Below, one piece after another: positions 4,863 to 63,765 of a DNA stretch of 64,000 nt (position 1 is the first letter of the stretch; each line of letters starts with the position of its first letter). Source of the stretch: Caulobacter sp. CCH9-E1. GTDB taxonomy: Bacteria > Pseudomonadota > Alphaproteobacteria > Caulobacterales > Caulobacteraceae. The stretch spans positions 1-64,000 of the forward strand of contig NZ_LSJA01000098.1 of the NCBI RefSeq assembly GCF_001556515.1. The letters are read 5' to 3'. Under the pieces are notes generated by a model. The model saw nothing but the letters and a program-made list of their open reading frames with translations, was not told the origin of the DNA and made no database searches. The position numbers and the translations under genes are program-made.

Positions 4863-4872
4863 GCGGGGTAGA

Positions 4873-4988: not shown

Positions 4989-4989
4989 A

Positions 4990-5460: not shown

Positions 5461-5542
5461 GGCTCTCTTTATCAGCAGCCGCGCCGCTTGAAACCTTGTC
5501 TCCAGCCTAGTAACCGACGCGTTCGAATTTCAGGAGATCCCC

Positions 5543-5830: not shown

Positions 5831-7302
5831 TGAGCGCGCTGACGAACCTGACCCTGAAGGCCGCCGTCGATGGCCTGGCCAAGGGCGAATTCACCTCGGT
5901 CGAGCTGACCAAGGCGCACATTGACGCGATCGAAGCCGCGCGCGGCCTGAACGCCTACATCCTGGAGACGCCGGAAAAGGCCCTGGACATGGCCGCCCAG
6001 TCCGACGCTCGCCGGGCGCAAGGCCAAGCCGGTCCGCTGGAAGGGGCGCCGTTGGGCGTGAAGGATCTCTTCTGCACCGAGGGCGTGCGCACCACGGCCT
6101 GCTCGAAGATCCTTGAGAACTTCGTGCCGACCTACGAGTCGACCGTGACCAGCCAGCTGTGGCGCGACGGCGCGGTCATGCTGGGCAAGCTGAACCTCGA
6201 CCAGTTCGCCATGGGCTCGTCGAACGAGACCTCCTACTTCGGCCCGGTCACCAATCCCTGGCGGGCGAAGGGCTCGACCAAGGCCCTGACGCCGGGCGGC
6301 TCGTCCGGCGGTTCGGCCGCGGCCGTCGCGGCGGACCTGTGCCTGGGCGCCACGGCCACCGACACCGGCGGCTCGATCCGCCAGCCGGCCGCCTTCACCG
6401 GCACCGTCGGCATCAAGCCGACCTACGGCCGCTGCTCGCGCTGGGGCGTCGTCGCCTTCGCCAGCTCGCTGGACCAGGCCGGCCCGATCGCCAAGACGGT
6501 CGAGGACGCGGCCCTGCTGCTGACTTCGATGTCGGGCCACGACCCCAAGGACTCGACCAGCCTCGACGTGCCCGTGCCGGACTTCACCCAGTTCGTGGGC
6601 AAGTCGGTGAAGGGCCTGAAGATCGGCATTCCGAAGGAATACCGCGTCGACAACATGCCGGCCGAGATCGAGAAGCTCTGGCAGGACGGCATCGCCTGGC
6701 TGAAGGAGGCCGGCTGCGAGATCGTCGACATCAGCCTGCCCCACACCAAGTACGCCCTGCCGGCCTACTACATCGTGGCCCCGGCCGAGGCGTCCTCGAA
6801 CCTCGCTCGCTATGACGGCATGCGCTACGGCCTGCGGGAAGAGGGCGCGACCCTGACCGAGATCTACGAGAACACCCGGGCCGCGGGCTTCGGCGACGAG
6901 GTCAAGCGCCGCATTCTGATCGGCACCTATGTGCTCTCGCACGGCTATTACGACGCCTACTACCTGAAGGCCCTGAAGGTGCGTCGTCGCATCGCCGAGG
7001 ACTTCGACAACGCCTGGACGAAGTGCGACGCGATCCTCACCCCGACCGCGCCTTCGGCGGCGTTCGGCCTGGGCGAGAACAGCAACGATCCAATCGCCAT
7101 GTACCTGAACGACGTCTTCACGGTGACGACGAACCTGGCGGGTCTGCCGGGCCTCAGTCTGCCGGCCGGTCTCGACTCCAACGGCCTGCCGCTAGGCCTG
7201 CAGATCATCGGCAAGCCTCTGGACGAGGCGACGGTGTTCTCGGTCGCCGGGGCGGTCGAGAAGGCCGCTAACTTTTCGGCGAAAGCCGAAAAGTGGTGGT
7301 GA
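5830..7302 (+). CDS. gatA: Aspartyl/glutamyl-tRNA(Asn/Gln) amidotransferase subunit A
   Basis: Amidase subunit that releases ammonia from glutamine for tRNA amidation; 490 residues, full length. The amidase-signature catalytic triad is visible as Lys78 (GVKDLF), Ser158 ([10 protein letters not shown]) and Ser182 ([13 protein letters not shown]), with the family's 24-residue spacing between the serines. The start overlaps the last base of the gatC stop. A strong hairpin terminator follows directly, so gatB further right must have its own promoter. Confidence 0.97.
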
Positions 7303-48798: not shown

Positions 48799-49800
48799 TT
48801 AAGGGGTGGCTGTTTGCGGCGTATCGTTCGCGACCACGGGGGGCGCCGGACGCGTCGTGCGCCACAGGATCAGGCCCAGGGCGCCCAGGGTCAGCTCGCG
48901 CAGTCGTCGCAGCAGCGATAGGGCCATCGCCTGGTCTGGCGAAAGGCCCAGCGCGCCGCCCAGCAACAGATAGCCGCCTTCCTGCACGCCCAGCGCTCCA
49001 GGAATGGCGAAGCCCACGACCTTGGCCGTCTGCGCCAGTCCCTCGACGATCAGCGCCTGGACCAGGGTGGGATGCAGGCCCAGCGCCCACATCGACACAT
49101 AGGTCTCGAAGGCTCCCGCCAGCCAGGCCGCCATGTGCCAGGCCCAGGAAGCGCCGATCTCCTTCCGACGCGCGCCGATGTCGCGAAAGGCGTCGCCCAG
49201 CGCGCCGACGCGGCTCGCGATCGCGGTCCAGCGCTGCGAGAACTGTCCGATCCGCTGGCCCACCCCCGCCTTATGGGCGACGAACAGGCTGGCGGCGATC
49301 AGCGCCACGACGCTGACCAGGGTCAGGCCGGCCTGCGCCAGGCGCGGATCGCGCAGCGTGACAAGGGCCACCGCCAAGCTGGCCAGGACGAACAGGACCA
49401 GACCCACCGTGCCGGCCAGGACGTCGACGACGCAGCTGGCCGTGCTCTCGGCCAGGCTGAGGCCCTTACGAACGGCCAGCTTGGCGCGGACCACTTCGCC
49501 GCCGACCTGGGCCACGGGCAGCAAGGCGTTGACGGCCTCCTTGATCAGCCGCAGGCGAAACAGGAAGGGCAGGGAGGGGCGGCGGTCGGGCGGCAGCAGC
49601 ACTTGCCAGCCGACCGTGGCGAAGAACGTCACCGGAAGGTGGGCCGCGATGACAAGAACGGCCTGCCAGCCGACCTGGGCCAGGATTTCGCGCACGGCGC
49701 CGGCGCCGTGGGTGGCCAGAAGGATCGCCAACAGCGCGACGCCGGCGGTCAGCAGCCAGCCTCGCGCCGACGCCCCGCGCTTACCCGCCTTTTCGGTCAT
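48799..49800 (-). CDS. UPF0104 / lysylphosphatidylglycerol-synthase-like membrane protein
   Basis: 333 residues with about eight hydrophobic segments (LLTAGVALLAILLATHG, AVLVIAAHLPVTFFATVGWQ, VGLVLFVLASLAVALVTL and others), inner membrane. RLRLIKEAVNALLPVAQVGGEVVRAKLAVRKG is the conserved LPG_synthase_TM (HpnL-like) segment, and GFAIPGALGVQEGGYLLLGGALGL the second. No soluble transferase domain is attached. Related proteins (HpnL, AglD) take part in polyprenyl or hopanoid lipid export. Its ATG overlaps the glycosyltransferase stop (ATGA), so the two likely act on the same lipid. Confidence 0.85.
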   Translation of the reverse strand: MTEKAGKRGASARGWLLTAGVALLAILLATHGAGAVREILAQVGWQAVLVIAAHLPVTFFATVGWQVLLPPDRRPSLPFLFRLRLIKEAVNALLPVAQVGGEVVRAKLAVRKGLSLAESTASCVVDVLAGTVGLVLFVLASLAVALVTLRDPRLAQAGLTLVSVVALIAASLFVAHKAGVGQRIGQFSQRWTAIASRVGALGDAFRDIGARRKEIGASWAWHMAAWLAGAFETYVSMWALGLHPTLVQALIVEGLAQTAKVVGFAIPGALGVQEGGYLLLGGALGLSPDQAMALSLLRRLRELTLGALGLILWRTTRPAPPVVANDTPQTATP

Positions 49801-50999
49801 GCCGCCGAGCGCGCGCGAGCGGTCGGGGCCGCTCCCAGTTCGCGATAGACGTCCAAGACGGCCGCGCAGATCGCATCCCAGTCGTAGGCGGCGCTGGAGG
49901 CGCGGGCCGTCCTGCCGATCCTCAAGCGGCGCAGCGGCTCGGCGATCAGGGCGCGAAGGGCCGCCGCATAGCTCGCCGCGTCCGCGCTCGGCGCCAGGAC
50001 GCCGTCTTGGCCGTCGGTGATCAGGGCGCTGGTGCTAGGGGCGCGGGGACACAGAACCGCCAGGCCCGCCGCCATGCCTTCCAGGCTGGCGTTGCCGAAG
50101 GCCTCGGTCAGGCTGGGATTGAACAGGATGTCGGCGCTGGAGACGGCGCGGCCCAGGGCGTCGCCGTCCAGATGACCGGTGAAGATCGCGTTCGGCGCAC
50201 GCTCTTCGAGGAAGGCGCGAGCGGGACCGTCGCCGATGATCAGCGGACGGATCGGCTGGTCGGCGAGGAGGGCCAGGGTCTCGGCCAGGACGTCGAGGCC
50301 CTTTTCCATGACCAGACGACCCAGGAACGCGACCACGACTTCGTTGTCGGCGATCCCCTGCGACCGCCGCCAGGCCATGTCCTTGCGCTCGGGCGAGAAC
50401 CGGCCGCGATCGACGCCGCGTCCCCACACCCGCACTCGGTCGCCAAGGCCCTGCTCGCGCAGGAGGTCCGCGATCGGCGCGTTCGGCGCCAGCACACGGT
50501 CGCAGCCGCGATAGAAGCGATCCAGATAGCGCTCGACGGTCGGCCGCAGCCAGTCGAGGCCGTAGTAGGATAGGTAGGTCTCAAAGCGCGTATGAAGGCT
50601 GGCGACCACAGGCAGTCCGGCGGCGCGCGCCCAACGACCGGCCTGCGAGCCGAGAAGATCCGGGGCCGAAAGATGGACGATGTTCGGCTGAAAGGCGGCC
50701 AGGTCGGCCTTCAGGCTGGAGGTCAGGCCCAGCGCCAGGCGATATTCGCTACGCCCGGGGATGGCGACGGACGGCGCCGAGACCAGGTCGCCGGCGGGCT
50801 CGAAGGCCGGGGTGTCCGTGGTCGGCGAATAGACGCGGACCGTCGCGCCAGCCTCGATCAGATAGGCCGCAAGGCGATTCAGCGCCTGGTTGGAGCCGTC
50901 ACGCGTGTAGTTGTAGTTGCCTGAGAAAAGGGCGAGGCGAAGGCCTTCGGCGGGCTTTTCCTCAGCGGGCTGACGAATATTTCTTTCCGCGCGCTGCAC
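49797..50999 (-). CDS. GT4-family glycosyltransferase
   Basis: 400 residues, GT-B fold. RLALFSGNYNYTRDGSNQALNRLAAYL at the N-terminus, PNIVHLSAPDLLGSQAGRWARAAGLPVVASLHTRFETYLSYYGLDW and VWGRGVDRGRFSPERKD are the family's acceptor-side motifs. VVVAFLGRLVMEKGLDVLAE, PLIIGDGPARAFLEERAPNAIFTGHLDG and SLTEAFGNASLEGMAAGLAVLCP contain the donor-binding Arg/Lys and E-x7-E. It resembles the SQDG/mannosyl-lipid synthase group. GTG at 50999 with AGGAGGCGTC upstream decides the start. Position next to sphingolipid genes makes a lipid acceptor plausible. Confidence 0.88.
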   Translation of the reverse strand: MQRAERNIRQPAEEKPAEGLRLALFSGNYNYTRDGSNQALNRLAAYLIEAGATVRVYSPTTDTPAFEPAGDLVSAPSVAIPGRSEYRLALGLTSSLKADLAAFQPNIVHLSAPDLLGSQAGRWARAAGLPVVASLHTRFETYLSYYGLDWLRPTVERYLDRFYRGCDRVLAPNAPIADLLREQGLGDRVRVWGRGVDRGRFSPERKDMAWRRSQGIADNEVVVAFLGRLVMEKGLDVLAETLALLADQPIRPLIIGDGPARAFLEERAPNAIFTGHLDGDALGRAVSSADILFNPSLTEAFGNASLEGMAAGLAVLCPRAPSTSALITDGQDGVLAPSADAASYAAALRALIAEPLRRLRIGRTARASSAAYDWDAICAAVLDVYRELGAAPTARARSAA

Positions 51000-51190
51000 G
51001 ACGCCTCCTGGTCTGACTCCGAGGCCCCCACCCGAATATGACAATGGGCATATGGTGGAATGGTTCAGGTTCCGGAAGGGGAAGGCCATCGGTCATCCCC
51101 ACAATCTTTGGGGCAAGCTGAACCGAAGCTGAACCATGGGGTGCGGCGGATCGGCTGCCGACAAGAAGCGATCGACCGTTGCCGATTGAT

Positions 51191-51376: not shown

Positions 51377-52138
51377 ATGCAGCCGGTCAAGACCCTCATC
51401 CTCGCCGCCGGTCAGGGCAAGCGGCTGTCGCCGCTGACTGACGATCGGCCCAAGTGCCTGGTGGAGCTGGCCGGCAAGACGGTCCTGGAATGGCAGCTGC
51501 GCCATCTGCATCAGGCGGGCGTGCCGGAGGCGGTGGTCGTCACCGGCTTCCGTAGCGATCTGGTCGAGGCCGAGATCGCGCGGCTGTCGCTGCCGGGCAT
51601 GACGGTTCGCACGCTCTACAACCCCTTCTACAGCGTGACCGACAACCTCGCGACGTGCTGGCTGGCGCGCGAGGAGATGCGCGGCGGGCCGTTCATGATC
51701 CTCAACGGCGACACCTTGTTCGAGCCGGCCATCGCCGAGCGCCTGATCAGCGCGCCGGACGCGCCGATCACGGTGACCGTGGACCGCAAGGCGGGCGGCT
51801 ACGACGCCGACGACATGAAGGTGTTGACCGAGGGCGACGCCCTGCGCGCCATCGGCAAGACGATCACCGAATACGACGCCGAGTCGATCGGCTTCCTGCG
51901 CTTCAACACGGAGGGCTCGGCCCTGTTCGTGAAGACGCTGGAGGCGATCATGCGCACGCCCGAGGGGCTGAAGCGCTGGTATCTCAGCGTGATCAACGAG
52001 ATCGCCCAGAACCACGACGCCGTGCGCGTGCGCTCGATCGAGGGCCTGGACTGGGCCGAGATGGACTTCCCCGAAGATCTGGTCCGCAACCGGGCCCTGA
52101 CCGCGCAGTGGGCCGCCAAGGAGGCCGAGGCCGTTTAG
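51377..52138 (+). CDS. LicC/HddC-type sugar- or phospho-alcohol nucleotidyltransferase
   Basis: 253 residues, GT-A-like nucleotidyltransferase. Start LILAAGQGKRLSPLTDDRPKCLVEL holds the G-x-G-x-R and PK activation motifs; VTGFRSDLVEAEI and FMILNGDTLFEP (metal Asp) follow. YNPFYSVTDNLATCWLAREEM is strongly reminiscent of choline-phosphate cytidylyltransferases (LicC; NPxYxxTNN-like). It probably makes a CDP-activated headgroup. Next to ceramide phospholipid genes including a CDP-alcohol transferase, it is a candidate supplier of that donor. Its last four bases overlap the facing gene's stop. Confidence 0.85.
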   Translation: MQPVKTLILAAGQGKRLSPLTDDRPKCLVELAGKTVLEWQLRHLHQAGVPEAVVVTGFRSDLVEAEIARLSLPGMTVRTLYNPFYSVTDNLATCWLAREEMRGGPFMILNGDTLFEPAIAERLISAPDAPITVTVDRKAGGYDADDMKVLTEGDALRAIGKTITEYDAESIGFLRFNTEGSALFVKTLEAIMRTPEGLKRWYLSVINEIAQNHDAVRVRSIEGLDWAEMDFPEDLVRNRALTAQWAAKEAEAV

Positions 52139-52890
52139 GCCTCGCCTACCAGTTCCCGAACGAGATCCAGATCGGACGGCTTGTCGACATCGACGGCCGC
52201 CAGGCCATCCTGCGCCCGCACGGCGGCCGCCTTTACGTCCGCCAGCCTGCCCAGCCGCGCCACCGCCTCGTCCAGCGTCAGCAGGCCCAGGGCGTAGCGG
52301 AGCAGGAAGCTCGGCCCCAGCATGGCGGCGATCTTCCAGGGCTGCTTGCGCAGAGCTTCAACCTTGCGCCAGACGGCGATCACCTTCAGCGCGTTCTCGT
52401 TGCGCAGCAGGAAGAGGTTGCAGCCCGAATAGCGGCCGTCGCGGAACTTCAGATAGGTCCGCTTGGTCTGGGGCGCGGCGGCTTGCACGCGCCCTTCCGA
52501 CGCCAGAAGCACGGCGACATCGGCGTCGGCCGGCGTGTCCGCCACGAACTGTGTGATCCACTCCGGCTTGAGCAGGGCGTGATCCACCGTGGTGACGACC
52601 AGGGGAAAGCCCAGGGCCGTCGCGCCATCGGCGACGCTCTGGCTGGGACCTGCCGACGGCGGCAGGACCTTCACGTCGGCGGTGGCGAGCGCCGCGCGGA
52701 TCGCCTCGTCGTTGGCCGAGACGCCGATCGTCTGCGCGCCAGCGGCCTGGACGGCGCCCAGCACGCGGTCCAACAGCGTCCGGCCCTGCAGGACGATCAG
52801 GCCCTTGTGCGTGACGCCGGCATAGGCGGCGGCGGAGTCGACTTTGCCGCCGCGCGATCCGGCCAGGATCAGCGCTTTAAAGCTGGTCAC
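52135..52890 (-). CDS. MobA-like NTP transferase domain protein
   Basis: 251 residues from GTG at 52890, overlapping the ceramide synthase stop (GTGA). FKALILAGSRGGKVDSAAAYAGVTHKGLIVLQGRTLLDRVL is a nucleotidyltransferase P-loop (G-x-R replaced by SRGGK) with the Lys-containing activation segment HKGLI. FPLVVTTVDHALLKPEW carries a TVDH in place of the NGD/CDxP metal site. No molybdopterin genes are near, so a role in sphingolipid headgroup chemistry is more likely than cofactor synthesis. Last gene of the coupled operon. Confidence 0.78.
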   Translation of the reverse strand: MTSFKALILAGSRGGKVDSAAAYAGVTHKGLIVLQGRTLLDRVLGAVQAAGAQTIGVSANDEAIRAALATADVKVLPPSAGPSQSVADGATALGFPLVVTTVDHALLKPEWITQFVADTPADADVAVLLASEGRVQAAAPQTKRTYLKFRDGRYSGCNLFLLRNENALKVIAVWRKVEALRKQPWKIAAMLGPSFLLRYALGLLTLDEAVARLGRLADVKAAAVRAQDGLAAVDVDKPSDLDLVRELVGEA

Positions 52891-54041
52891 AGAGCCTTCT
52901 CGTAGATCCGATAGGTCTTGTAGTGCGTGCCGCCGACATTCTCGGCGATGTGGCACATGGCCGTGTTGTCCTCGAGCACCCACGAGATCTCGAAGCGATT
53001 GTAGCCCAGCCCGATCGCCGTATCGCGGCCCGCCTTCATCATCCAGAACGGCAACATGCGGCCGCGTTGGGTGGTCGAGAACTTGCGCTTCACGCCCATC
53101 AGCGGAATGCGGGCCGACTTCACGCGCTTGACCTTCAGCCGCCACAGCAGCTTGGCCCAGCCGAACGGCAGCAGCTTGCCGTTCAGGTCGGCGATCGCCT
53201 CGTTGACGTTGGGCAGGAAGACCAGGAACCCGGCCGGCTCGCCGTCGATCTCGGCGAACCAGGTCAGGCGCTTGTCGATCACGGCCTTGAGCGCCTTGGC
53301 CAACTGGCGGGTCTCGGCCTCGGTCGTGGGGGTGAAGCCCCAGTTGTCCTTCCAGGCGTCGTTGAGGATGTCCGTAAGGGTCTCGACCTCCTCGTCGTAC
53401 CGGGACATGTCGAGCTGGCGCAGCACCACGCCCGAGGGCAGGCCGCGCTTGACCCGGCGTCGGGCGATCTCGGGGATGTCGCCCGTCTCGTCGGCGATAT
53501 AGGCGAAGACGTCCTTGGCCTTGACGTAGCCCTGCTCCTCGACGCGCTTGCCGGCATAGGCCGGGTCGTGGCCCATCAGGATCATCGGCGGTGTGTCGAA
53601 GCCGTCGACCAGCAGGCCGACCTCTTCGTTGATCGACAGGTTGAAGGGGCCGACGATGTGCGTACGGCCGCGCGCCCGCAGCCAGTCCTCGGCCGTGCGA
53701 AACAGGATCTGGAAGACGGCCGCGTCGTCCTCGGCGGCGATCATGCCGAAGTGGCCGTCCAGGCGGCCCGGCGTCGGTTGCGGCGTCAGGCGGTCGATCT
53801 GGGCGCTGATCCGGCCGACGTCGCGACCGCCGCGCGTGGCCAGGAACAGCTGCGCCTCGGCATGGGCGAAGAACGGATTGGTCTTCGGCGTCAGGGCCTC
53901 GGTCCGCTCCAGGGTCAGCGGGGTGACCCAGTTCGGATCCTTGGCGTTCAGCCGCGCGGGCAGGGCGATGAAGCGCTTCAGCTCGTCTGGCGTCTTGACC
54001 GGGATGACCTGCAGGTCGGCGTTCGTGGAGTCGAAAGGCAT
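52887..54041 (-). CDS. bcerS: GNAT-type bacterial ceramide synthase
   Basis: 384 residues annotated in many genomes only as GNAT acetyltransferase. It contains IPVKTPDELKRFIALPARLN, a DUF-like N-terminal half (GPFNLSINEEVGLLVDGFDTPPMILMGHDPAYAGKRVEEQGYVKAKD) and a C-terminal acyltransferase core (WFAEIDGEPAGFLVFLPNVNEAI, RFEISWVLEDNTAMCHIAENVGGTHYKTYRIYEKAL). This matches the Caulobacter ceramide synthase that N-acylates the sphingoid base, and spt, acp and cerR are 8 kb away. Start ATG 54041 is shared with the LptG-like stop (TGATG). Confidence 0.82.
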   Translation of the reverse strand: MPFDSTNADLQVIPVKTPDELKRFIALPARLNAKDPNWVTPLTLERTEALTPKTNPFFAHAEAQLFLATRGGRDVGRISAQIDRLTPQPTPGRLDGHFGMIAAEDDAAVFQILFRTAEDWLRARGRTHIVGPFNLSINEEVGLLVDGFDTPPMILMGHDPAYAGKRVEEQGYVKAKDVFAYIADETGDIPEIARRRVKRGLPSGVVLRQLDMSRYDEEVETLTDILNDAWKDNWGFTPTTEAETRQLAKALKAVIDKRLTWFAEIDGEPAGFLVFLPNVNEAIADLNGKLLPFGWAKLLWRLKVKRVKSARIPLMGVKRKFSTTQRGRMLPFWMMKAGRDTAIGLGYNRFEISWVLEDNTAMCHIAENVGGTHYKTYRIYEKAL

Positions 54042-55102
54042 CACCCCTCCAGGGCCAAGAAGGTGCGCGCCGCCAACGCGCCGAAGATGGCGGGGGCCGC
54101 CCACACGGCCAGGATCGGCGACAGGGCGCCGGACTCACCGAGGGCGGTGAGCATGCCGTTCGCGACAAGGAAGAGAAGCCCCGCGCCGAGCCCCGCCGTC
54201 AGCAGGACCGCGCCCTGGCCGCTGCGGAAGTTGGCCAGAGCCACGGGCGCGCTCAGCAGCAGCATGACCAGCGAGACGAAGGGGCTGGCGAACGCCGACT
54301 GGAAGTGGGTGGCGTAGAAGCTTTCCGGCCGGTCCGAGCCGCCGTTCTCAAGCGCGCGCCGCGCCGTGGCCGCGGTGGGGGCGCTGTCGTCGCCGAACAG
54401 GCCCTGGACGTCCTGCGGGCGCAGGGCCGTCGGCCAGCGGGTCGAGGCGGCGGTCGAGGCCTGGGCCAGGTCGCCGACGAAGCGGGTGGTCTTCGGATCT
54501 TCCAGAGTCCAGGCGCCGTGGGCGTACAGGGCCTTCGGCGCTTCGACCTTCTCGACCAGAATGCCCTTGGCGTTGCGGCGGAAGATGGTCAGGCCGGCGA
54601 TCTGGCGGCCGTCCGCCGAGGCGTCGGTACCGATGACCAGGTCGGCCCCAGCGCGGAAGGTGCGGGGCGAGGGCGCCTTGCGCTCGGCGACCGGGGTTGT
54701 CTTCTTCCACCAGTCGGCCAGGGCCGGATCGGCGCGCGGCGCCAGGACTTGGCCGCACAGGGCGTCCAGCAGCATGACGACGATGACGGCCGGCAGGGCC
54801 ATGGCGACGATGCGATAACCGGAAATGCCGCTAGCGCGCATGGCCACCACGGCGCTTTCGCGGGCCAGCTGCGAAAAGGCGAAGAGGCCGCCTGCCAGCA
54901 CGGCGATCGGGGCGACCTGCTCGAACAGGCGGGGCAGGCGCAGGGCGGCGTAATAGGCCACGCCCGCGATGCCCAGGCCGCGGTCGAGGATGTCGGTGGT
55001 GACGTCCAGCAGGTCCAGAATCTGCAGGATGGACATCAGGATCAGCGCCGCGCCGAGGATGCGGGTGGCGACGGTCCGCAGGACGTAGAGCTGCAGCTTC
55101 AT
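54041..55102 (-). CDS. LptG-like YjgP/YjgQ permease (probable sphingolipid export)
   Basis: 353 residues, six transmembrane helices in two blocks of three flanking a periplasmic jelly-roll domain, as in LptF/LptG. RILGAALILMSILQILDLLDV and YYAALRLPRLFEQVAPIAVLAGGLFAF carry the family's N-terminal pattern; ESAVVAMRASGISGYRIV is the coupling-helix region that contacts the LptB ATPase. The periplasmic part (DLVIGTDASADGRQIAGLTIFRR) is intact. Encoded between an LptF-like protein and the ceramide synthase with ATGA and TGATG overlaps, so export of a sphingolipid rather than LPS is likely. Confidence 0.85.
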   Translation of the reverse strand: MKLQLYVLRTVATRILGAALILMSILQILDLLDVTTDILDRGLGIAGVAYYAALRLPRLFEQVAPIAVLAGGLFAFSQLARESAVVAMRASGISGYRIVAMALPAVIVVMLLDALCGQVLAPRADPALADWWKKTTPVAERKAPSPRTFRAGADLVIGTDASADGRQIAGLTIFRRNAKGILVEKVEAPKALYAHGAWTLEDPKTTRFVGDLAQASTAASTRWPTALRPQDVQGLFGDDSAPTAATARRALENGGSDRPESFYATHFQSAFASPFVSLVMLLLSAPVALANFRSGQGAVLLTAGLGAGLLFLVANGMLTALGESGALSPILAVWAAPAIFGALAARTFLALEG

Positions 55103-56316
55103 GCGGGTTGTCGTTTCGGCAGGGGCAGGGCGCGCACCAGGCGCGTGACCAGGTTGTTGACGCGGCGAACCAGACGCGAGACCGGCGTGTCGCCTGGCCT
55201 CGTCCGGCTGCCCAGGAACAGCCAGAGAGCGAATCCCGAGAACAGGGCGAACGGGATCCAGATCGCCGGCCCCGCCGCCATCTTGTCCGCCTTGGCCAGG
55301 CTTTGCCCCAGCAGCAGGGCGTGCTGGAAGGCCAGCAGCAGTACGCCGGCCATGATCAGGCCCGGCGCGCGGTTGCCGCGTTTGGACGCCAAGCCCAGCG
55401 GGAAGGCCAGCAGTGGCAGGAAGGGCAAGAAGGCCGCGCGGGCGATACGGCCGTAGAGCTCGCTGAGCAACGTTCCCTTGGACACCACCGGATTCGGCGA
55501 CTTGGCCTGCTGGGCCAGCTCGCCCAAGGTGAGCTCGCGCTCGTCGCCGCCGCGATCGCGCAGCAGGACGGCCGCCGCCGCCAGCGGCGTCTGGGTCGTC
55601 AGGCTGCTGAAGGCCAGATTGCGATACTCGCCCTTGGCGTCGCGGCCGATGCGGCGACCGTCGCGCAGGTCCATGGTCACGGTCTTGCCGCCGGGATCCA
55701 GCTTCAGGTCCGCGGAGGCGGCCGTGATGATCTCTTCCTGGCCCTTGCTGTCTTGCCGGCGGATGAACACCCGGGTCAGGCGCTGACCCGCGATGTCGGC
55801 GCTGTCGGCCGTCAGCAGCGAGCCCTTGTCGTCGATGAAGGCGCCGCCCGCCAGACGTCCGTTCCAGCCGGCGTTGATCGCCGCGTGCATCACCGCGCGA
55901 TAGGCGTATCGGCTGTAGGGCTGCATGTAGCCGAAGACGATCAGGCTGAAGACGCTAAGGAACAGGCCCACGGCCAGGAACGGCGCGGCGATCCGCTCTA
56001 GCGACTGGCCGCTGGCCAGCAGGGCGTCGACCTCGGAGCCGTCCGACAGCCTCACGATGACGATGAACAGCGCCACGAAGAAGGCCACCGGCAGGGCCAG
56101 GCCCAGATAGTGCGGCACCAGATTGGCGGCGAGCTGGGCGACATAGCCGAACCGCGCGCTGCTTTGCGACAGCGCGTCCAGAAGGCGCAGGATGCGCTCC
56201 AGCAGAAGGGCCACCACCGTGACGCCCAGGCAGCCGACCAGCGGCCAGAACAGCAGGCGCAGCAGGTAGCGATCGATCAGCCGCACGGGACCAGCGGACA
56301 TCGTCTTGGCGCTCAC
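55099..56316 (-). CDS. LptF-like YjgP/YjgQ permease (probable sphingolipid export)
   Basis: 405 residues. DRYLLRLLFWPLVGCLGVTVVALLLERILRLLD is the first helix with the conserved polar start; LAANLVPHYLGLALPVAFFVALFIVIVRLSDGSEVDALLASGQSLERI is the canonical LptF coupling segment. A periplasmic domain (GAFIDDKGSLLTADSADIAGQRL) follows, then three C-terminal helices. The basic tail ends PLPKRQPA. Start is GTG at 56316, overlapping the HIT-gene stop (GTGA); an internal ATG at 56301 is an alternative. Partner of the LptG-like protein encoded next; an LptB-type ATPase is not in the window. Confidence 0.85.
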   Translation of the reverse strand: MSAKTMSAGPVRLIDRYLLRLLFWPLVGCLGVTVVALLLERILRLLDALSQSSARFGYVAQLAANLVPHYLGLALPVAFFVALFIVIVRLSDGSEVDALLASGQSLERIAAPFLAVGLFLSVFSLIVFGYMQPYSRYAYRAVMHAAINAGWNGRLAGGAFIDDKGSLLTADSADIAGQRLTRVFIRRQDSKGQEEIITAASADLKLDPGGKTVTMDLRDGRRIGRDAKGEYRNLAFSSLTTQTPLAAAAVLLRDRGGDERELTLGELAQQAKSPNPVVSKGTLLSELYGRIARAAFLPFLPLLAFPLGLASKRGNRAPGLIMAGVLLLAFQHALLLGQSLAKADKMAAGPAIWIPFALFSGFALWLFLGSRTRPGDTPVSRLVRRVNNLVTRLVRALPLPKRQPA

Positions 56317-56750
56317 GCTTGGACCCAGGCCTTGGCGAAACGGGCGGCGAGGCGCTCGACCGCGTCGAGCGACAGCTCCACGGCCGAGCCCAGGGCCGGC
56401 GCGGCGGGCCAGCCGGCGTCCGGGAAGCTCAGCCCGTCATGCTCGCGCGCGCCCGCATAGCGCGGCAGCACATGGAAATGGACGTCTTTGTCGACCATCA
56501 TCAGCATCAGGTAATTGATCTTTTCATAGTCGACCTGAGCCTTCAGCAGGCGCTCAATGCCGGCCACGGCGACCTGCAAGTCCGCGAAGGCGGCGGGACT
56601 CACCTCGGAGAACGCCTGGACAGCTTCCTTGCACACCAGCACCAAAGACCCAAATGTCGGCTGCTTGGGGCGGAGCAGAATCAGCCAGTGATCGGTCTCC
56701 GCGATCTTGGAACCGGGATAGCCGAACGCCAGAGCGGTGGGATTGGTCAT
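56313..56750 (-). CDS. HIT-superfamily protein
   Basis: 145 residues. IAETDHWLILLRPKQPTFGSLVLVCKE is the N-terminal HIT strand pair, and KDVHFHVLPRYAG the catalytic segment. The usual HxHxH triad reads D-V-H-F-H, so the first His is missing while the two later ones, including the nucleophile position, remain. HIT proteins hydrolyse or transfer nucleoside monophosphates. First gene of the coupled LptF/LptG/ceramide-synthase operon, suggesting it works on a nucleotide-linked lipid precursor. ATG at 56750 gives a normal family length; longer reading upstream is antisense to the DUF2141 gene. Confidence 0.82.
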   Translation of the reverse strand: MTNPTALAFGYPGSKIAETDHWLILLRPKQPTFGSLVLVCKEAVQAFSEVSPAAFADLQVAVAGIERLLKAQVDYEKINYLMLMMVDKDVHFHVLPRYAGAREHDGLSFPDAGWPAAPALGSAVELSLDAVERLAARFAKAWVQA

Positions 56751-56813: not shown

Positions 56814-57305
56814 ATGAAAGCACCATCCGTTCTCATCGGCGCGATCTTCGCGACTTTGGCGGCGGGTTCGGCGAGCGCCGAGGGGCTTGCCGCGCCTCTG
56901 ACCGACAAGGACTGCGTCGGCCGCAAGGGCGACGTGCGGTTGATCGTGCAGGTCGGCGCGCTGCGCTCGAACGCCGGCGAGGTGTCGATCACGGTCTATC
57001 CATCTGATCCGGATCGCTTTCTGGTTCCGCGCGGCAAGCTGCTGCGCCAAAGGGTCAAGGCGTCCGCGCCGATGACCCAGGCCTGTTTCAACCTGCCCGT
57101 CGCCGACGCCTATGCGGTCGAGGCCTATCACGACGTCGACGCCGATCGGCAACTGGATCGCAATACGCAAGGCCTGCCGACGGAGGGCTACGGCTTCTCG
57201 AACGACGCGCCGACCCGGTACGCCAAGCCGTCCTATGACGCCGTCCGTTTCATGGTGAAGCCGGGCGACAACACCATCCGGATCAAGATCCGCTATCCGC
57301 GCTGA
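56814..57305 (+). CDS. DUF2141 exported protein
   Basis: 163 residues with signal peptide (MKAPSVLIGAIFATLAAGSASA). The DUF2141 domain is clear: GDVRLIVQVGALRSNAGEVSITVYPSDPDRFL, YAVEAYHDVDADRQLDRNTQGLPTEGYGFSNDAP, and a final strand NTIRIKIRYPR. The D-x-D-x-D-like YHDVDADRQLD loop may bind calcium. Likely periplasmic; function unknown. Divergent from the HIT gene (63 bases) and overlapping the facing phosphoesterase gene by 13 bases at the 3' end. Confidence 0.87.
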   Translation: MKAPSVLIGAIFATLAAGSASAEGLAAPLTDKDCVGRKGDVRLIVQVGALRSNAGEVSITVYPSDPDRFLVPRGKLLRQRVKASAPMTQACFNLPVADAYAVEAYHDVDADRQLDRNTQGLPTEGYGFSNDAPTRYAKPSYDAVRFMVKPGDNTIRIKIRYPR

Positions 57306-58204
57306 GCCGCGGCGCTCGAAAGGCTGAAGCGGCCCAGTTCGGTCAGGCCCTCGCGGCCGGCCTCGATCCCGCGCGCGACGATCCGTACGTCGAAACCGCC
57401 GCTGGTCCGCGGCTCGATCTCGATGGCGTTCCAGCGGGCCGGGCCGTGTCGGTTGGGCCGCGCCGAGGCGGAGGGGACGCCCAGCACCGGAATCGTCGCG
57501 CCGTCTGGCCCGCGCAGAGCGCCCAGAAGCGCCTCGTGAGCATGGCCATGGAGAACGAGGTCGGCGCCGCGTCGCGCGAGCACGTCGCGTAGGGCGTGAC
57601 GGTCATCCAGCGACTTGCGCTTGGACACCGCGCCCTCATGCGGCGGGTGGTGCAGGACGACGAGCCGGAAAAGGCCCGCATAGGCAGGGTCGGCGAGGGC
57701 GGCGTCCAGCGCTTGGAGTTGCTCCTCGCCGAGGCGGCCGGTAGCGAGGTGCGGGGCGGTCGGCACGGCCGAGCAAAGATTGAAGATCGCCACGGGGCCG
57801 CGCACGCGGACCTGCGGAAAGCGGCTTTCGCCGGTGTCGCCCAGCCATGGCGCCCAGATCGCGAACCGCTCGTGCCCGCCGGCGCCGGCCAGGGCGTCGT
57901 GATTGCCGGGGCTGACGGTGAAGTCCGCCGGGTCGCCCAAGGATTCCAGCCATTTGCGTGCGGCCGAAATCTCCGTGGGCGAAGCGAAGTTGGTGAGATC
58001 GCCGCTAATCACCACATGATCGGGCGTGGAGGCTTTCAGATCGGCCACCAGGGCTTCAAGCACCTCGGGGCGGTGAACCTTGCGCTTCTTGCGCCAGGCG
58101 ATCCGGCTGAGGAGCCGCTTGGTGAAGACGTCCTTCCACCCGAACGCGCCGGGCGGCGGCGGCAGGTGGGGGTCGGACAGGTGGGCGATGCGGTAAATGG
58201 ACAA
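57293..58204 (-). CDS. Calcineurin-like metallophosphoesterase
   Basis: 303 residues with all five metal motifs: RIAHLSDPHLPPP (D-x-H), VISGDLTN (G-D), SPGNHDAL (GNHD), VVLHHPPH (H) and VLHGHAHEALL (GH-x-H). No signal peptide; KRLLSRIAWRKKRKVHRPEV is basic and might touch the membrane. The start is TTG at 58204; no ATG or GTG fits better. It resembles phosphodiesterases and UDP-diacylglucosamine hydrolase-like enzymes, so a phospholipid or nucleotide-linked substrate in sphingolipid synthesis is possible. Divergent from the CDP-alcohol transferase (77 bases). Confidence 0.88.
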   Translation of the reverse strand: MSIYRIAHLSDPHLPPPPGAFGWKDVFTKRLLSRIAWRKKRKVHRPEVLEALVADLKASTPDHVVISGDLTNFASPTEISAARKWLESLGDPADFTVSPGNHDALAGAGGHERFAIWAPWLGDTGESRFPQVRVRGPVAIFNLCSAVPTAPHLATGRLGEEQLQALDAALADPAYAGLFRLVVLHHPPHEGAVSKRKSLDDRHALRDVLARRGADLVLHGHAHEALLGALRGPDGATIPVLGVPSASARPNRHGPARWNAIEIEPRTSGGFDVRIVARGIEAGREGLTELGRFSLSSAAAQRG

Positions 58205-58281: not shown

Positions 58282-59421
58282 TTGAGCGTTGAAATTCAAA
58301 ACACGGCCACGGCGGGTCCGCGGGCCGTGACCGTCGGCGAAGCTGGCGGCCGCATCTGGGGCATGACCTCGCGCGAGCGCTTGTCGCGCGTTTATCGGCG
58401 TCTCGGCCTAATCGAGACGCCGGCCGTCGATCTGTCGCATGCGGCGGTCGTGGTCGACGCCGGCTGGGTGTTCGACGAGTCGCTGATCAAGGCCCTGGCT
58501 GGGCGCGAAGGCGCGGTGCTGGTCGACGACACGGGCAGGGCTGTCGCGGCCCATGCGCCGGCCGAGCTGGCCTACGCCGTTTCCGAGGCGCTGGCCGCCG
58601 GGCAGGACCCGTCGGGCGTCGACGCGCGCCTGACGCGATTGACGGCGTTGGAGTTGGGCTCGGCCTACAACAGCGCCCTGCGCAAGCGCGAGCCGCCGGT
58701 GCTGGAACGCCTGACGCCCGAGACCGTGCGCGCCGTCGAAAAGCGCCTGTTCCAAGGCTCCTACAAGGGCGTCACGGATCTCGTCACCAAGTACGTCTGG
58801 CCCGCGCCGGCGCGCGTCGTGACCCGCTGGTGCGCCCTGGCCAAGATGACGCCGAACCAGGTGACCTTCATCGGCTTCCTGCTGACCCTGGCCGCCACCT
58901 GGCTGTTTTGGCATGGTCAGTTCGGCTGGGGCCTGGTCTGCGCCTGGATCATGACCTTCCTCGATACGGTCGACGGCAAGCTGGCGCGGGTGACCCTGAC
59001 CTCGTCGAAGTGGGGCAACGTCTTCGACCACGGCATCGACCTGCTGCATCCGCCTTTCTGGTGGTGGGCCTGGTTCGTCGGCGTCTACGCGGTCGGCCAG
59101 ACCATTCCTTACCCGGCGCTCAGCTTGGCGATCGTGATCGGCGGCTATGTCGCCCAGCGCGTGGAGGAGGGGATCTTCCTGGCGCTGTTCAAGCTGGAGA
59201 TGCACGCCTGGCGGCCGTTCGACAGCTTCTTCCGCCTGATCACCGCGCGCCGGAACCCGAACCTGATCCTGATGACGGGCTGCGCGTTGATCGGTCGCCC
59301 GGATGTTGGTTTCACCCTGGTGGCGATCTGGACCGCCGTGTGCTTCCTCGTGCACGCCGTTCAGATCCTGCAAGGTCTGGCCGCCCCCAAGGGCTCGATC
59401 CAATCGTGGTTGGCGAAATGA
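58282..59421 (+). CDS. CDP-alcohol phosphatidyltransferase-family protein (ceramide headgroup synthesis)
   Basis: 379 residues. The N-terminal domain (GGRIWGMTSRERLSRVYRRLGLIETPAVDLSHAAVVVDAGWVFDE) is a degenerate nucleotidyltransferase-like module often fused to these enzymes. The membrane catalytic domain holds the signature D228-x2-D231-G-x2-A-R, G, D249 and D253 (LDTVDGKLARV, WGNVFDHGIDLLH). It should transfer a phospho-alcohol from a CDP donor to a lipid acceptor. It leads a coupled three-gene operon matching the ceramide-phosphoglycerate genes of Caulobacter (cpg). TTG at 58282 is the chosen start; ATG at 58363 would lose part of the N-terminal module. Confidence 0.85.
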   Translation: MSVEIQNTATAGPRAVTVGEAGGRIWGMTSRERLSRVYRRLGLIETPAVDLSHAAVVVDAGWVFDESLIKALAGREGAVLVDDTGRAVAAHAPAELAYAVSEALAAGQDPSGVDARLTRLTALELGSAYNSALRKREPPVLERLTPETVRAVEKRLFQGSYKGVTDLVTKYVWPAPARVVTRWCALAKMTPNQVTFIGFLLTLAATWLFWHGQFGWGLVCAWIMTFLDTVDGKLARVTLTSSKWGNVFDHGIDLLHPPFWWWAWFVGVYAVGQTIPYPALSLAIVIGGYVAQRVEEGIFLALFKLEMHAWRPFDSFFRLITARRNPNLILMTGCALIGRPDVGFTLVAIWTAVCFLVHAVQILQGLAAPKGSIQSWLAK

Positions 59422-60335
59422 CACGCGTCGCGGTCATCCGTAATCCAGAGAGCCACGGCAATCGGATGAACCCGCCCGGGCCGACGCCCGAAGGCGTGCG
59501 GCTGGCCGAGCCCTTCGGGCGCGACGCTCTGCGATCGGTGCTCGAGGACTTCGCGCGCGAGGGTCTGGACCTTCTGGTCATCGATGGCGGCGACGGCACG
59601 GTGCGCGACGTCATCAGCCTGCTGCCGCACACCTTCGGCGAGGACCTGCCGCTGCTGGCGGTGCTGCCGTCGGGCAAGACCAATGTGCTGGCGATCGATC
59701 TGGGCACCCAGCGCGACTGGCGTCTGGAGGAGGCGCTGAACGCCGCGCGCAAGGCCGAGCCGCGGATCAAGTCGCGACCGCCGCTGCGCATCAGCTGGGT
59801 GGACAGCCACCGGCCTTGCCTGCAGGGCTTCTTCTTCGGCGTGGGCGCGCTCGTCAAAGCCACCAACCTGTCTCAGAAGGTCCACAAGGTCGGCTTCTTC
59901 CATAATCTGGCGGTCGGCGTGACGATCGCCACGGCCACGCTGGGCGCCCTGTTCGGAGGCGCGCGGGACGAATGGCGCGAGGGCGTGCCGGCGAAGCTGA
60001 CCTTGGACGGCGAGACCCAGCCGGGCGAGGAGCGCTTTGCGATCGTCGCCACGGCGCTGAAGCGCCTGCCGTTCGGGCTGAAGCCCTTCGGCGAACCGCG
60101 CGAGGGCCTCAAGATCCTCGATGTCGACGCGCCGCCCCGAAAGCTGCTGAAGGCTCTGCCCCTGGTGCTGAGCGGCAAGGCCGAGCCGAAGCTCGAGAGC
60201 ATGGGCTATCGACGCCGCGATCCTCAGATGGTGGGCCTGGCTGGCTGCGCGCCGTTCGTGCTGGATGGCGAGGTGTTCGAAGGCGGCGAGTTGGTGATCG
60301 CCCTGGGGCCCGCCCTGAGGTTCCTGGTCGGATGA
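59418..60335 (+). CDS. cpgB: Diacylglycerol-kinase-family lipid kinase (probable ceramide kinase)
   Basis: 305 residues. LLVIDGGDGTVRDVISLL contains the nucleotide-binding GGDGT (57-61); LLAVLPSGKTNVLAIDLG is the second conserved block, with GKTN in place of the usual GTxN. FFFGVGALVKATNLSQKVH forms the C-terminal lobe. The family phosphorylates diacylglycerol or sphingoid lipids; the gene order (CDP-alcohol transferase, kinase, nucleotidyltransferase-fold protein, facing spt) matches Caulobacter cpgB. Its ATG overlaps the preceding stop (ATGA) and its own stop overlaps the next ATG. Confidence 0.85.
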   Translation: MTRVAVIRNPESHGNRMNPPGPTPEGVRLAEPFGRDALRSVLEDFAREGLDLLVIDGGDGTVRDVISLLPHTFGEDLPLLAVLPSGKTNVLAIDLGTQRDWRLEEALNAARKAEPRIKSRPPLRISWVDSHRPCLQGFFFGVGALVKATNLSQKVHKVGFFHNLAVGVTIATATLGALFGGARDEWREGVPAKLTLDGETQPGEERFAIVATALKRLPFGLKPFGEPREGLKILDVDAPPRKLLKALPLVLSGKAEPKLESMGYRRRDPQMVGLAGCAPFVLDGEVFEGGELVIALGPALRFLVG

Positions 60336-61213
60336 GCCGCCTTCGCGACCTTGTCGCGGCCGAGCTCGCCACGCCGCTTCCGGCGCAGATCACCGCCTTC
60401 GCCGAGCATCTGGCGCGGGTCTTTCCGGACGCGCGGGCGGTCTTGTTCTACGGTTCGATCCTGCGCTCCGGCGACCTGTCCGGCGTGCTCGACTACTACG
60501 TCCTGACCGAGCGGCCGCCGGCTGGCTGGCGGGGCGTCTTCACGCGCATTCTCTGGCCGGACGTCAGCTATCACGAGCTCAAGCTGGGCGGCGAGGCGCT
60601 GCGGGCCAAGGTGGCGTCGATGACGCTGGCCCAGTTCCAGCGGGCGGTGAGCGGGGCGGGCCCCGACACAACGATCTGGGCGCGCTTCGTCCAGCCCTGC
60701 GCCCTGGTCTGGGCCGCCGACGGCAGTCGTGAGGCGGTCATGGACGCGGTGAGCGAGGCCTGTCGAACCGCGGCCCGCTTCGCCCAGGCGCTGGGCCCCG
60801 AAGGCGCCGCGCCGCGCGCCTTGTGGACCGCCTTGTTCCAGGAGACCTACAAGGCCGAACTTCGGGTCGAGAAGGCGGGGCGCGAGGCCTCGATCCTAGC
60901 CTACGATCCCGAGCGCTACGACCATGTCATGACGGCCGTCCAGGACGATCAGGGCGGGCCGTTGGAGCCAGCCGAGCGAGCGCGCCTGCGCAGGGCTTGG
61001 GGGCCCCGCAAGCTGTTGGGCAAGCCTTTGAACGTCGCCCGCCTGATGAAGGCGGCCTTCACCTTCCAGGGCGCGGCGCGCTACGCCGCCTGGAAGATCC
61101 AGCGGCACACGGGGGTCGAGATCGAGATCACCCCCTGGCGCGAGCGGCATCCGATCCTGGCGGCGCCGGGCGTGCTGCTGAAGGTCTGGAAGGGCCGGCG
61201 GAGAGCCGCCTAG
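60332..61213 (+). CDS. Nucleotidyltransferase-fold protein of the ceramide-phosphoglycerate operon
   Basis: 293 residues. The N-terminal part has a pol-beta-like G-S motif: ARAVLFYGSILRSGDLSGVLDYYVL, where only one acidic residue of the usual D-x-D pair is kept. A helical C-terminal region (WKIQRHTGVEIEITPWRERHP) is basic and might bind membrane. No transmembrane segment. Third gene of the coupled operon (ATGA overlap), likely corresponding to the Caulobacter cpg gene next to spt; its exact reaction I cannot assign. A strong terminator follows. Confidence 0.78.
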   Translation: MSRLRDLVAAELATPLPAQITAFAEHLARVFPDARAVLFYGSILRSGDLSGVLDYYVLTERPPAGWRGVFTRILWPDVSYHELKLGGEALRAKVASMTLAQFQRAVSGAGPDTTIWARFVQPCALVWAADGSREAVMDAVSEACRTAARFAQALGPEGAAPRALWTALFQETYKAELRVEKAGREASILAYDPERYDHVMTAVQDDQGGPLEPAERARLRRAWGPRKLLGKPLNVARLMKAAFTFQGAARYAAWKIQRHTGVEIEITPWRERHPILAAPGVLLKVWKGRRRAA

Positions 61214-61277: not shown

Positions 61278-62492
61278 TCAAGCGCGAGCGCGCTTGAGCG
61301 GCTCGATCACGCCCAAAGCCGCGCCGATCTCGGCGAAGGTCTTGAGAACCGCGTCGATCTGCTCGTCGGTGTGGGCGGCGCTGACGCTGGCGCGCAGCAG
61401 CGGACGGCTGTCAGGCGTGGCCGGCGGCAGAGCCAGGTTCAGGTAGACGCCGGCCTGCAGCAGGCCGTTCCACATGGCGATGGCGCGTTCCTGGTCCGGC
61501 ATGGTCGTGGCGACCACCGGGCTGGCCGTCGGGCCGGTGTGGAAGCCCAGGGCGGTCAGGCCGTCGTACAGGCGCTTGGCGTTGTGGTTCAGGCGGTCGC
61601 GCAGCTCCGGCTGCTCGATCATGCGGCGCAGGGCGGTGATGGTCGAGGCGACCACGGCCGGCGGCAGCGAGGCGGTGAACATGTAGGGGCGGCAGACGAC
61701 GCGCATGACGTCGAAGTCGTCCATGTTCGAGACGCAGAAGCCGCCGATGGCGCCCAGGCTCTTGGAGAAGGTGCCGACGATGAAGTCGACGTCGTCTTCC
61801 ACGCCCGCGGCTTCGGCGAGGCCCCGGCCCGTCGCGCCGAGCACGCCCATCGAGTGGGCTTCATCGACCAGCAGGTAGCCGCCCATCTCGCGCTTCACGG
61901 CGGCGATTTCCTTGAGCGGCGCGACGTCGCCGATCATCGAATAGACGCCTTCGACCACGATCAGGCGCTCGCCCGGCGCGTCGCCGAGACGGCGCAGGCG
62001 CTTGGCCAGATCTTCAGGGTCGTTGTGGCGGAAGCGGATGACCTCGGCCTGGCCCAGACGCGAGGCGTCATAGATCGAGGCGTGGCTGTCGGCGTCGAGG
62101 ATCAGATGGTCGCCGCGGCCGACCAGCGTCGACAGCACGCCCAGATTGGCCTGGTAGCCGGTCGTGAAGACCATGGCGTGCTTGCGGCCGTAGAACTTGG
62201 CCAGTTCCTGCTCGAGCTCGACGTGGGCTTCGAAGCTGCCGTTGGCGATGCGGGAACCCGTGGTGCCCGTCCCGCGTTCCTGTACAGCTTTCACCGAAGC
62301 GGCGATCGCTTCTTGGTCGAAGGTCAGGCCCAGATAGTTGTTGGTGCCGAGAAGGATGGTCGGGCGACCCTCCACCACGCCTTCGGTCGGCGAATGCACC
62401 GCGTCGAAACGGACCTTGAACGGGTCGGCCCCGGCGTCCTGGATGGCCTTGTACGCATCGCGATAGGCCAGGTGCTTATCGAATAGCCCCAT
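61278..62492 (-). CDS. spt: Serine palmitoyltransferase (sphingoid base synthesis)
   Basis: PLP-dependent alpha-oxoamine synthase, 404 residues, which condenses serine with an acyl thioester to 3-keto-sphinganine. PTILLGTNNYLGLTFDQEAI, GTGTTGSRIANGSFEAHVELEQELAKFY, LVDEAHSMGVLGATGRGLAE (Asp-Glu-Ala-His cofactor site) and GTFSKSLGAIGGFC with the PLP Lys244 are all present. The acyl carrier protein gene 3 bases upstream indicates an acyl-ACP donor, and 7-keto-8-aminopelargonate synthase is excluded by this context. Cytoplasmic. Confidence 0.95.
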   Translation of the reverse strand: MGLFDKHLAYRDAYKAIQDAGADPFKVRFDAVHSPTEGVVEGRPTILLGTNNYLGLTFDQEAIAASVKAVQERGTGTTGSRIANGSFEAHVELEQELAKFYGRKHAMVFTTGYQANLGVLSTLVGRGDHLILDADSHASIYDASRLGQAEVIRFRHNDPEDLAKRLRRLGDAPGERLIVVEGVYSMIGDVAPLKEIAAVKREMGGYLLVDEAHSMGVLGATGRGLAEAAGVEDDVDFIVGTFSKSLGAIGGFCVSNMDDFDVMRVVCRPYMFTASLPPAVVASTITALRRMIEQPELRDRLNHNAKRLYDGLTALGFHTGPTASPVVATTMPDQERAIAMWNGLLQAGVYLNLALPPATPDSRPLLRASVSAAHTDEQIDAVLKTFAEIGAALGVIEPLKRARA

Positions 62493-62838: not shown

Positions 62839-63765
62839 TTAGGGCAGCCAGCCCTGTTTTCGGTACCAATCGACTGTGTGAGCGAACCCGTCGAAAAGAC
62901 CGAATACGCTGGGTACTCCCTCAGCCATCGGAGCGCTAGATGGTGTCCAATCGGCGTGAAGCAACTCCCTGGCCTTACCTAAACCGAACACCATGGGGGT
63001 CTGACTGGCGAAAGACCAAGCATCCGCAAGGGCTCCGGCGGCCATGACGCCCGCCTTTGGAAGCCTTACCAGGCTTGGTTTTCGGCCCATCACGCTGGCC
63101 GCCGTACTCATGATTTCCGCCCAGGTGTAACCGTCGCGCCGCACATCCGATAGCTCTACCAGGCCTGAAACGGGGTTTTTGCAATAGGCCGCAAGCTGTG
63201 ACGCGGCGTCGTGGACATGGATCATCGCCACTCTCGACGTCGGAGAGAGCACCGGCAGCACGGGGCTGGAGGCGGCCAGCTTGAAGACTTCCAGAGTTTC
63301 GGTGTCGCCCGGACCATAGATCGCCGGCGGTCGGACGATCAGCGCGTCCGGCGAGTCCGCCAGGACGGCGTCCTCGCCCGCGCGCTTGCTGGCGGCGTAG
63401 TTCGACAGCGTCGGTTCGCGCGCCGCGAGACTCGACACCAGCAGGAAGCGCGCCCTGGCCTCACGCGCGGCCTGGGCGGCGGCGAGCGCGCCGTCGCGAT
63501 TGACCGCGTTGAAGGCGTCCAGGGAGCGGGCCTTGATCAGGCCGGCCACGTGGACCACCACCTCGGCCCCTTCGCTGAGCCGGGCCAGCGCGCCGGGCGC
63601 GCGCAGGTCTCCCGCGACGACCTCGACGTTGAAGTCCCGCCAAACGGGGTGGATCGGGTCGCGCCGGACCAGGACGCGCGGCGTCCAGCCGTCCTGGGTC
63701 AGGGCGCGGACCAGATGGCGGCCCAGGAAGCCCGTGGCTCCGGTGACGGCGACGACGCCTGGCAT
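62839..63765 (-). CDS. cerR: Extended SDR, probable ceramide reductase
   Basis: 308 residues of an NAD(P)-dependent epimerase/dehydratase-like enzyme. Rossmann motif VTGATGFLGRHLVRAL, LLVSSLAAREPTLSNYAASKRAGED with Ser and YxxxK, and IVRPPAIYGPGDTETLEVFKL. The position between acp and an acyl-activating enzyme, in the order acyl ligase-cerR-acp-spt, matches the Caulobacter gene that reduces the 3-keto group of the ceramide precursor. One-base overlap with the upstream stop. Confidence 0.85.
   Translation of the reverse strand: MPGVVAVTGATGFLGRHLVRALTQDGWTPRVLVRRDPIHPVWRDFNVEVVAGDLRAPGALARLSEGAEVVVHVAGLIKARSLDAFNAVNRDGALAAAQAAREARARFLLVSSLAAREPTLSNYAASKRAGEDAVLADSPDALIVRPPAIYGPGDTETLEVFKLAASSPVLPVLSPTSRVAMIHVHDAASQLAAYCKNPVSGLVELSDVRRDGYTWAEIMSTAASVMGRKPSLVRLPKAGVMAAGALADAWSFASQTPMVFGLGKARELLHADWTPSSAPMAEGVPSVFGLFDGFAHTVDWYRKQGWLP

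Follow-up and report, generated by a model that had tools for sequence, protein, structure and literature searches.

What does an LptF/LptG permease pair carry when its genes stand among those for sphingolipid synthesis rather than lipopolysaccharide (LPS) synthesis? The question is raised by a 64,000-nucleotide stretch of Caulobacter sp. CCH9-E1 (contig NZ_LSJA01000098.1; the whole stretch is called the window here), in which genes for two such permeases, LptF2 and LptG2, lie next to the gene for bacterial ceramide synthase (CerS). A sequence-only reading of the window had proposed that the pair is a dedicated exporter of anionic sphingolipid. Comparison with other genomes supports this proposal: LptFG of the window's kind, called type 2 here, tracks CerS and is the sole pair in 13 CerS genomes with no match to LpxC. 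The subfamily of the pair, its synteny, the copy numbers, the co-occurrence with CerS and the sole retention of type 2 where LpxC is missing make it probable that the window encodes, in LptF2 and LptG2, the membrane half of a second Lpt machine, one specific for its cargo, which extracts anionic sphingolipids from the inner membrane and shares LptB, and probably LptD, with LPS. What the lipid is, in which direction it moves, whether the permeases bind LptB, and whether LptC2, LptA and LptD take part are inferences. Papers are cited here by PMC identifier.

The second LptF/LptG pair in Caulobacter and its relatives

LptF2 (55099..56316, minus strand; 405 amino acids, GTG start) and LptG2 (54041..55102, minus strand; 353 amino acids, ATG start) scored 218.1 and 244.5 bits, respectively, against PF03739 (LptF_LptG; cut-off 27.9), and both are thus members of the LptF/LptG permease family. 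Both remained below the NCBIfam equivalog cut-offs, with 190.2 bits against 230 for LptF (TIGR04407) and 222.9 bits against 240 for LptG (TIGR04408). The AlphaFold model of LptF2, with a predicted local distance difference test (pLDDT) value of 77.9, had LptF 6mit_F as its best PDB match (E-value 1.5e-13), at a template modelling (TM) score of 0.55, which is a loose overall match, and the model of LptG2 (pLDDT 88.5) matched LptG 6mjp_G closely (TM 0.83). The models contained six long helices and a periplasmic beta domain, in addition to the match to solved LptF/LptG structures. LptF2 and LptG2 resemble LptB2FGC of E. coli and Klebsiella in family, predicted fold and the glutamate of the LptF coupling helix. 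They differ from it in the scores below both equivalog cut-offs and in their neighbours, which are sphingolipid genes instead of lptD or other LPS genes. In locus L204 (positions 3979-6357; genome G043), type-2 LptF and LptG were fused in one frame of 792 residues with two PF03739 stretches.

A second lptFG pair was looked for in 14 close relatives, comprising 13 genomes named Caulobacter and one Caulobacterales metagenome-assembled genome, with the window's own genome outside the comparison. Each of the 14 had two pairs matching PF03739, and four of them carried one more, unpaired gene. The neighbours of the other pair were read in six genomes (L051-L056), with the gene order lptF-lptG-lptD-surA-pdxA-ksgA and with pepA and holC on the opposite side. 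The proposed check for a second pair near LPS genes was therefore positive, as the pair was present in every relative and beside lptD in all six read, and the idea that the sphingolipid-associated pair might be the only one in the genome fails in these relatives. The sequence-only reading had also stated that LptFG is usually encoded with LPS genes; this held for the pair beside lptD, called type 1 here, and did not hold for type 2. In L219, L223 and L239, surA directly followed the type-1 pair and lptD was elsewhere in the genome. Two LptC genes were found in all 14 relatives, one copy lying about 11-15 kb from lptG2 on the same contig in 13 and on a separate contig in G008. LptB exceeded its cut-off once in each of 15 genomes (the 14 relatives and Oleispirillum).

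Types 1 and 2 formed their own sets in a tree of 168 LptF/LptG proteins, from which the rows of the Caulobacter loci L052, L053, L054, L064 and L066 were left out. Support was 100 for type-1 LptF (43 rows), 100 for type-1 LptG (40 rows), 98 for type-2 LptF (45 rows) and 93 for type-2 LptG (40 rows), the last reaching 100 in a thinned LptG tree; all trees were quick ones, in which long rows, above all L278, are of unsure place.

The two types also differed in residue patterns. The glutamate of the LptF coupling helix (E. coli E84; LptF2 E95) was present in 88 of 88 rows, including all 45 of type 2, and that of the LptG coupling helix (E. coli E88) was present in 40/40 rows of type 1 and 34/40 of type 2. 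These glutamates have been called strictly conserved even among distant homologues; E88A alone caused partial permeability defects, and the double change in LptF and LptG allowed no growth on LB (PMC5082905). LptF position 40 was acidic in 45/45 rows of type 2 versus 0/43 of type 1. Position 41, aligned to K30, was R, K or H in 41/45 rows of type 2 and R in 4/43 of type 1, and position 44, aligned to R33, was R in 45/45 and 15/43, respectively. R33 of LptF contacts an LPS phosphate (PMC6744409). At the K40 site of LptG, R was found in 37/40 rows of type 1, and a basic residue was rare in type 2 (R or K in 2/40). At the cavity mouth, type 2 has more of its basic residues in LptF and type 1 has more of them in LptG, and this shift is compatible with different cargo heads but is no proof of them. 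R44 of LptF2 was also considered as a marker of type 2; in a first, smaller set, type 1 had mostly Gln or Ser at position 44, and the marker was dropped once more genomes were added and Arg appeared in the 15 type-1 rows.

Co-occurrence with ceramide synthase and retention without LpxC

Co-occurrence was counted in 60 genomes of the order and 190 genomes of the class, with G006 counted in the relatives, the order and the class. The class counts of LptF/G and CerS were taken as coming from the same 190 genomes, all 46 listed rows of the CerS search falling within the first set, and weak CerS matches (G023 and G062 in the order, G256 in the class) were scored as negative. Strong CerS was found in 18/60 genomes of the order and at least four LptF/G genes in 17/60, with an overlap of 16. 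At least four LptF/G genes were thus present in 16/18 CerS genomes versus 1/42 of the others (Fisher 1.7e-11, kinship ignored), and 41 of these 42 had two LptF/G genes only. The corresponding numbers in the class were 25/190 and 10/190 with an overlap of nine, that is 9/25 CerS genomes versus 1/165 others (Fisher 2.6e-8). Type-2 LptFG is an old subfamily that tracks CerS.

Type-2 genes were read in all 16 overlapping genomes of the order. They lay beside CerS in ten and in a locus with a homologue of the glycosyltransferase GT_A (L060-like) in six, five of which also had a TMX homologue. A position in a glycosyltransferase locus and away from CerS would suit another cargo, in which case type-2 LptFG would move some other anionic or glycosylated lipid and the sphingolipid genes would be nearby through co-regulation of pathways; Caulobacter also makes glycosylated diacylglycerols (PMC6445935). 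However, the six genomes carry CerS too, and CerS is the neighbour of the pair in the remaining ten genomes of the order that combine CerS with extra LptFG, and likewise in the 13 lacking LpxC, so that we regard this alternative as unlikely.

The GT_A locus belongs to a further permease. A lone LptF3 (L060:6881-8074; also L061, L062, L063 and L230) was found in five genomes and grouped among the type-2 LptF proteins of Caulobacter and G037. LptF3 adjoins two divergent glycosyltransferases, GT_A and GT_B, and a protein with no Pfam match, and it may serve glycosphingolipid. An identification of GT_A and GT_B as Sgt1 and Sgt2 of C. crescentus was considered and dropped: no locus name of either occurred among the 120 listed of 7366 GT_A matches, GT_B not having been searched. 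Of four loci scanned for a Pho-box-like pattern in the gap between GT_A and GT_B, L060 alone matched, with four mismatches.

All 60 genomes of the order had LpxC and a single LptD (in G034, two LptD pieces belong to one frame). LpxC was searched for in 80 of the 190 class genomes, 25 with CerS and 55 CerS-negative; absence means no match to LpxC, the single lipid A gene looked for, in genomes whose completeness is not stated. LpxC was present in all nine CerS genomes with at least four LptF/G genes, and type 2 was located in seven of these nine. Of the 15 CerS genomes with two LptF/G genes, 13 lacked LpxC. In each of the 13, the only lptFG pair lay within a locus of up to 20 kb around CerS and one LptD was kept, and type 2 was the best match of all 26 LptF and LptG genes. 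The pair retained when LpxC is missing is thus of the window's kind, and as far as LpxC can tell, type 2 is not restricted to genomes in which LPS is made. Approximately unbiased (AU) tests were run with types 1 and 2 thinned to every second row and with groups named after the larger tree had been seen. Forcing the 13 LpxC-less pairs into type 1 was rejected, with p-AU of 3.8e-8 and 4.1e-6 for LptG and LptF, respectively. A single clade for LptF of the 13 genomes was also rejected (p-AU 6.95e-6), and the retention of type 2 is therefore not the habit of one recent family.

These genomes bear on the idea that the second pair exports LPS, redundantly or under certain conditions, and ended up among sphingolipid genes. 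In favour of this idea, type 2 folds like LptF/LptG and keeps the coupling helix of LptF, and types 1 and 2 coexist in genomes with LpxC. Its position as the sole pair in the 13 LpxC-less genomes, always in the CerS locus, together with the two-gene state of 41 of the 42 order genomes lacking strong CerS, makes this explanation very unlikely.

Several observations weigh against a dedicated sphingolipid extractor. In the order, G019 and G050 had CerS and LpxC with a single pair of type 1, and G020 had four LptF/G genes, including type 2, with no CerS match. In the class, G100 and G231 had four LptF/G genes and CerS-like matches that were 33 and 30% identical, respectively, and their second pair was not located. 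G152 had CerS and LpxC with one pair (type not read), and G109 likewise had LpxC with one pair, its CerS-like match being 36% identical and the one LptF read being type 1. G139 had homologues of CerS, Spt and CerR in 5.4 Mb and no match to LptF/G, LptD or LpxC, which means that sphingolipid genes can exist without Lpt. LpxC was absent in two of the 55 CerS-negative genomes (G133 and G160, where the pairs read were type 1), and these 55 were a non-random choice from 165, comprising all five with at least three LptF/G genes, one with a weak CerS match and for the rest mostly genomes of at least 1.9 Mb. Among the 60 genomes of the order, a Pfam search gave two clear LptC genes in just the two of Caulobacter lineage; LptC was in two pieces in G017 and G042 and gave no match in nine. 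A purpose-built hidden Markov model for a second LptC outside Caulobacter matched, among the fetched type-2 loci, only Caulobacter-lineage loci and the lptB-side L253-L255. The glutamate of the LptG coupling helix is replaced by Ala (position 84 of LptG2) in six type-2 rows, those of the window, four Caulobacter or Caulobacter-like genomes and G037, the last being the nearest relative of the Caulobacter Ala rows in the tree. Furthermore, no published transport assay of LptF2, LptG2 or LptC2 was found in the literature covered, which lacked most subscription papers.

The overlapping gene run and the sphingolipid cluster

Genes of the window are named after the gene order published for C. crescentus CC_1152-CC_1164 (PMC11324152), with which the cluster order is consistent. 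The nearest loci among those compared, L001 and L017 (Caulobacter sp. BP25), have an LptG 93% identical to that of the window and belong to Caulobacter, the genus that the sequence-only reading had named. The overlapping run begins with a HIT-family gene (56313..56750; PF01230 23.6 bits, cut-off 21.5), continues with lptF2, lptG2 and the CerS gene (CC_1154-like; 52887..54044) and ends with a MobA/CofC-like nucleotidyltransferase gene (CC_1153-like; 52135..52890; PF12804, NTP_transf_3, 61.2 bits, cut-off 27). CerS was named from its position and order, which are consistent with the published cluster, and it had no match in the Pfam or NCBIfam profiles. The four successive overlaps are 4, 4, 1 or 4, and 4 bases, with the coding-strand junction letters GTGA, ATGA, GTGATG and GTGA, respectively; the CerS gene may start at 54041 (ATG, 1-base overlap with lptG2) or at 54044 (GTG, 4-base overlap). 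The gapless overlaps of 1 or 4 bases claimed for this run were thus confirmed by both the open reading frames and the junctions, all on the minus strand, and they suggest translational coupling. An lptF-lptG overlap of 4 bases was possible in 11 of the 13 type-2 loci measured, including the window and L198, where two starts are possible and one of them gives this overlap; the exceptions were L205, with an overlap of 8 bases, and L297, where 15 bases separate the genes. A HIT gene also adjoins type-2 lptF in the distant loci L201, L208, L278, L279, L281, L293 and L294, although the published account of the cluster deems CC_1157 probably unrelated (PMC11324152).

On the plus strand, a CpgD-like nucleotidyltransferase gene (51377..52138; PF12804 and PF00483), by position a phosphoglycerate cytidylyltransferase in the same order as ccna_01210/CC_1152, meets the MobA-like gene tail to tail at the 3' ends. 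Just beyond cpgD, the minus strand (48799-51089) encodes a glycosyltransferase sharing 54% identity with GT_A from the LptF3 locus, as well as an LPG_synthase_TM protein (PF03706). On the other side of the run, a DUF2141 gene (56814-57305, plus; PF09912 83.4 bits) lies between the HIT gene and a calcineurin-like phosphoesterase gene (CC_1158-like; 57293..58204, minus; PF00149 56.3 bits). These are followed on the plus strand by genes for a CpgA-like CDP-alcohol phosphotransferase (CC_1159-like; 58282..59421; PF01066 43.4 bits), a CpgB-like ceramide kinase (59418..60335; DAGK_cat, PF00781 41.2 bits) and a CpgC-like protein (CC_1161-like; 60332..61213), named by position only and with no Pfam match. 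Serine palmitoyltransferase (Spt; 61278..62492; NF047599 687.2 bits, cut-off 500) and a CerR-like NAD-dependent reductase/epimerase (62839..63765; PF01370 71.9 bits) are encoded on the minus strand. Of the 28 type-2 loci that were clustered, 11 had a match to DUF2141 and 15 had a fatty acid hydroxylase, for example at L276:9450-10235 (PF04116 in the one member scanned).

The proposed route and what it would mean

In the route proposed for the sphingolipid extractor, LptB, which is single-copy in the 15 genomes counted, would drive both LptF1G1 and LptF2G2. In Caulobacter, LptC2 would take up the sphingolipid, and the bridge and LptD would be common to both cargoes; LptD would be shared because it is single-copy in two-pair and LpxC-less genomes alike. 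As a guess, the loss of the glutamate in Caulobacter LptG2 might weaken the hold of this protein on LptB and give LPS precedence. Direction is not readable from sequence, and LptFG2 could in principle act on sphingolipid at another step, as a flippase or in return to the inner membrane. However, a separate potential flippase, CC_1166, has been proposed in the published cluster (PMC11324152), which leaves less need for LptFG2 in flipping. Wherever the function of an Lpt permease is known, lipid is drawn out toward the periplasm and outer membrane, as established for E. coli LptB2FG, and each of the 13 LpxC-less CerS genomes that have a pair has kept LptD. Action at another step therefore seems highly improbable.

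The route of bacterial sphingolipids to the outer membrane was stated as unknown in 2024, when LptF2, LptG2 and LptC2 were proposed for phosphosphingolipid transport as an untested suggestion in a paper that did not study transport (PMC11324152). By gene order, CC_1156, CC_1155 and CC_1168 of C. crescentus (LptF2, LptG2 and LptC2, respectively) are the same genes in the same cluster, and the same function was suggested for them. In that paper, cofitness of CC_1159 was 0.60 with CC_1156 (lptF2) and 0.78 with CC_1168 (lptC2), values that fit this proposal (PMC11324152). The idea of an exporter was thus already in print; the comparative evidence, comprising the LpxC-less genomes, the type-1 and type-2 trees and the residue patterns, is new here, and the comparison of LpxC-less genomes was not found in the literature searched, which had the same gap in subscription papers.

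A wider scheme is possible but doubtful, in which LptFG would be a modular front end, each version specific to its cargo. Type 2 would then be an old sphingolipid extractor working on the LptB and LptD of LPS and split by head group into phospho- and glyco-sphingolipid, and in some Caulobacter LptF3 would replace LptF2 beside LptG2 and export glycosphingolipid.

A clean genetic test is possible in organisms with two pairs, since the removal of type 2 leaves the LPS pair untouched. If type-2 LptFG is an extractor of sphingolipid, LPS is not the only business of the Lpt machine, and a single ATPase and a single outer-membrane gate can be enough for two cargoes. This would also give a ready explanation for an outer membrane built with sphingolipid in Caulobacter and in relatives without LPS.

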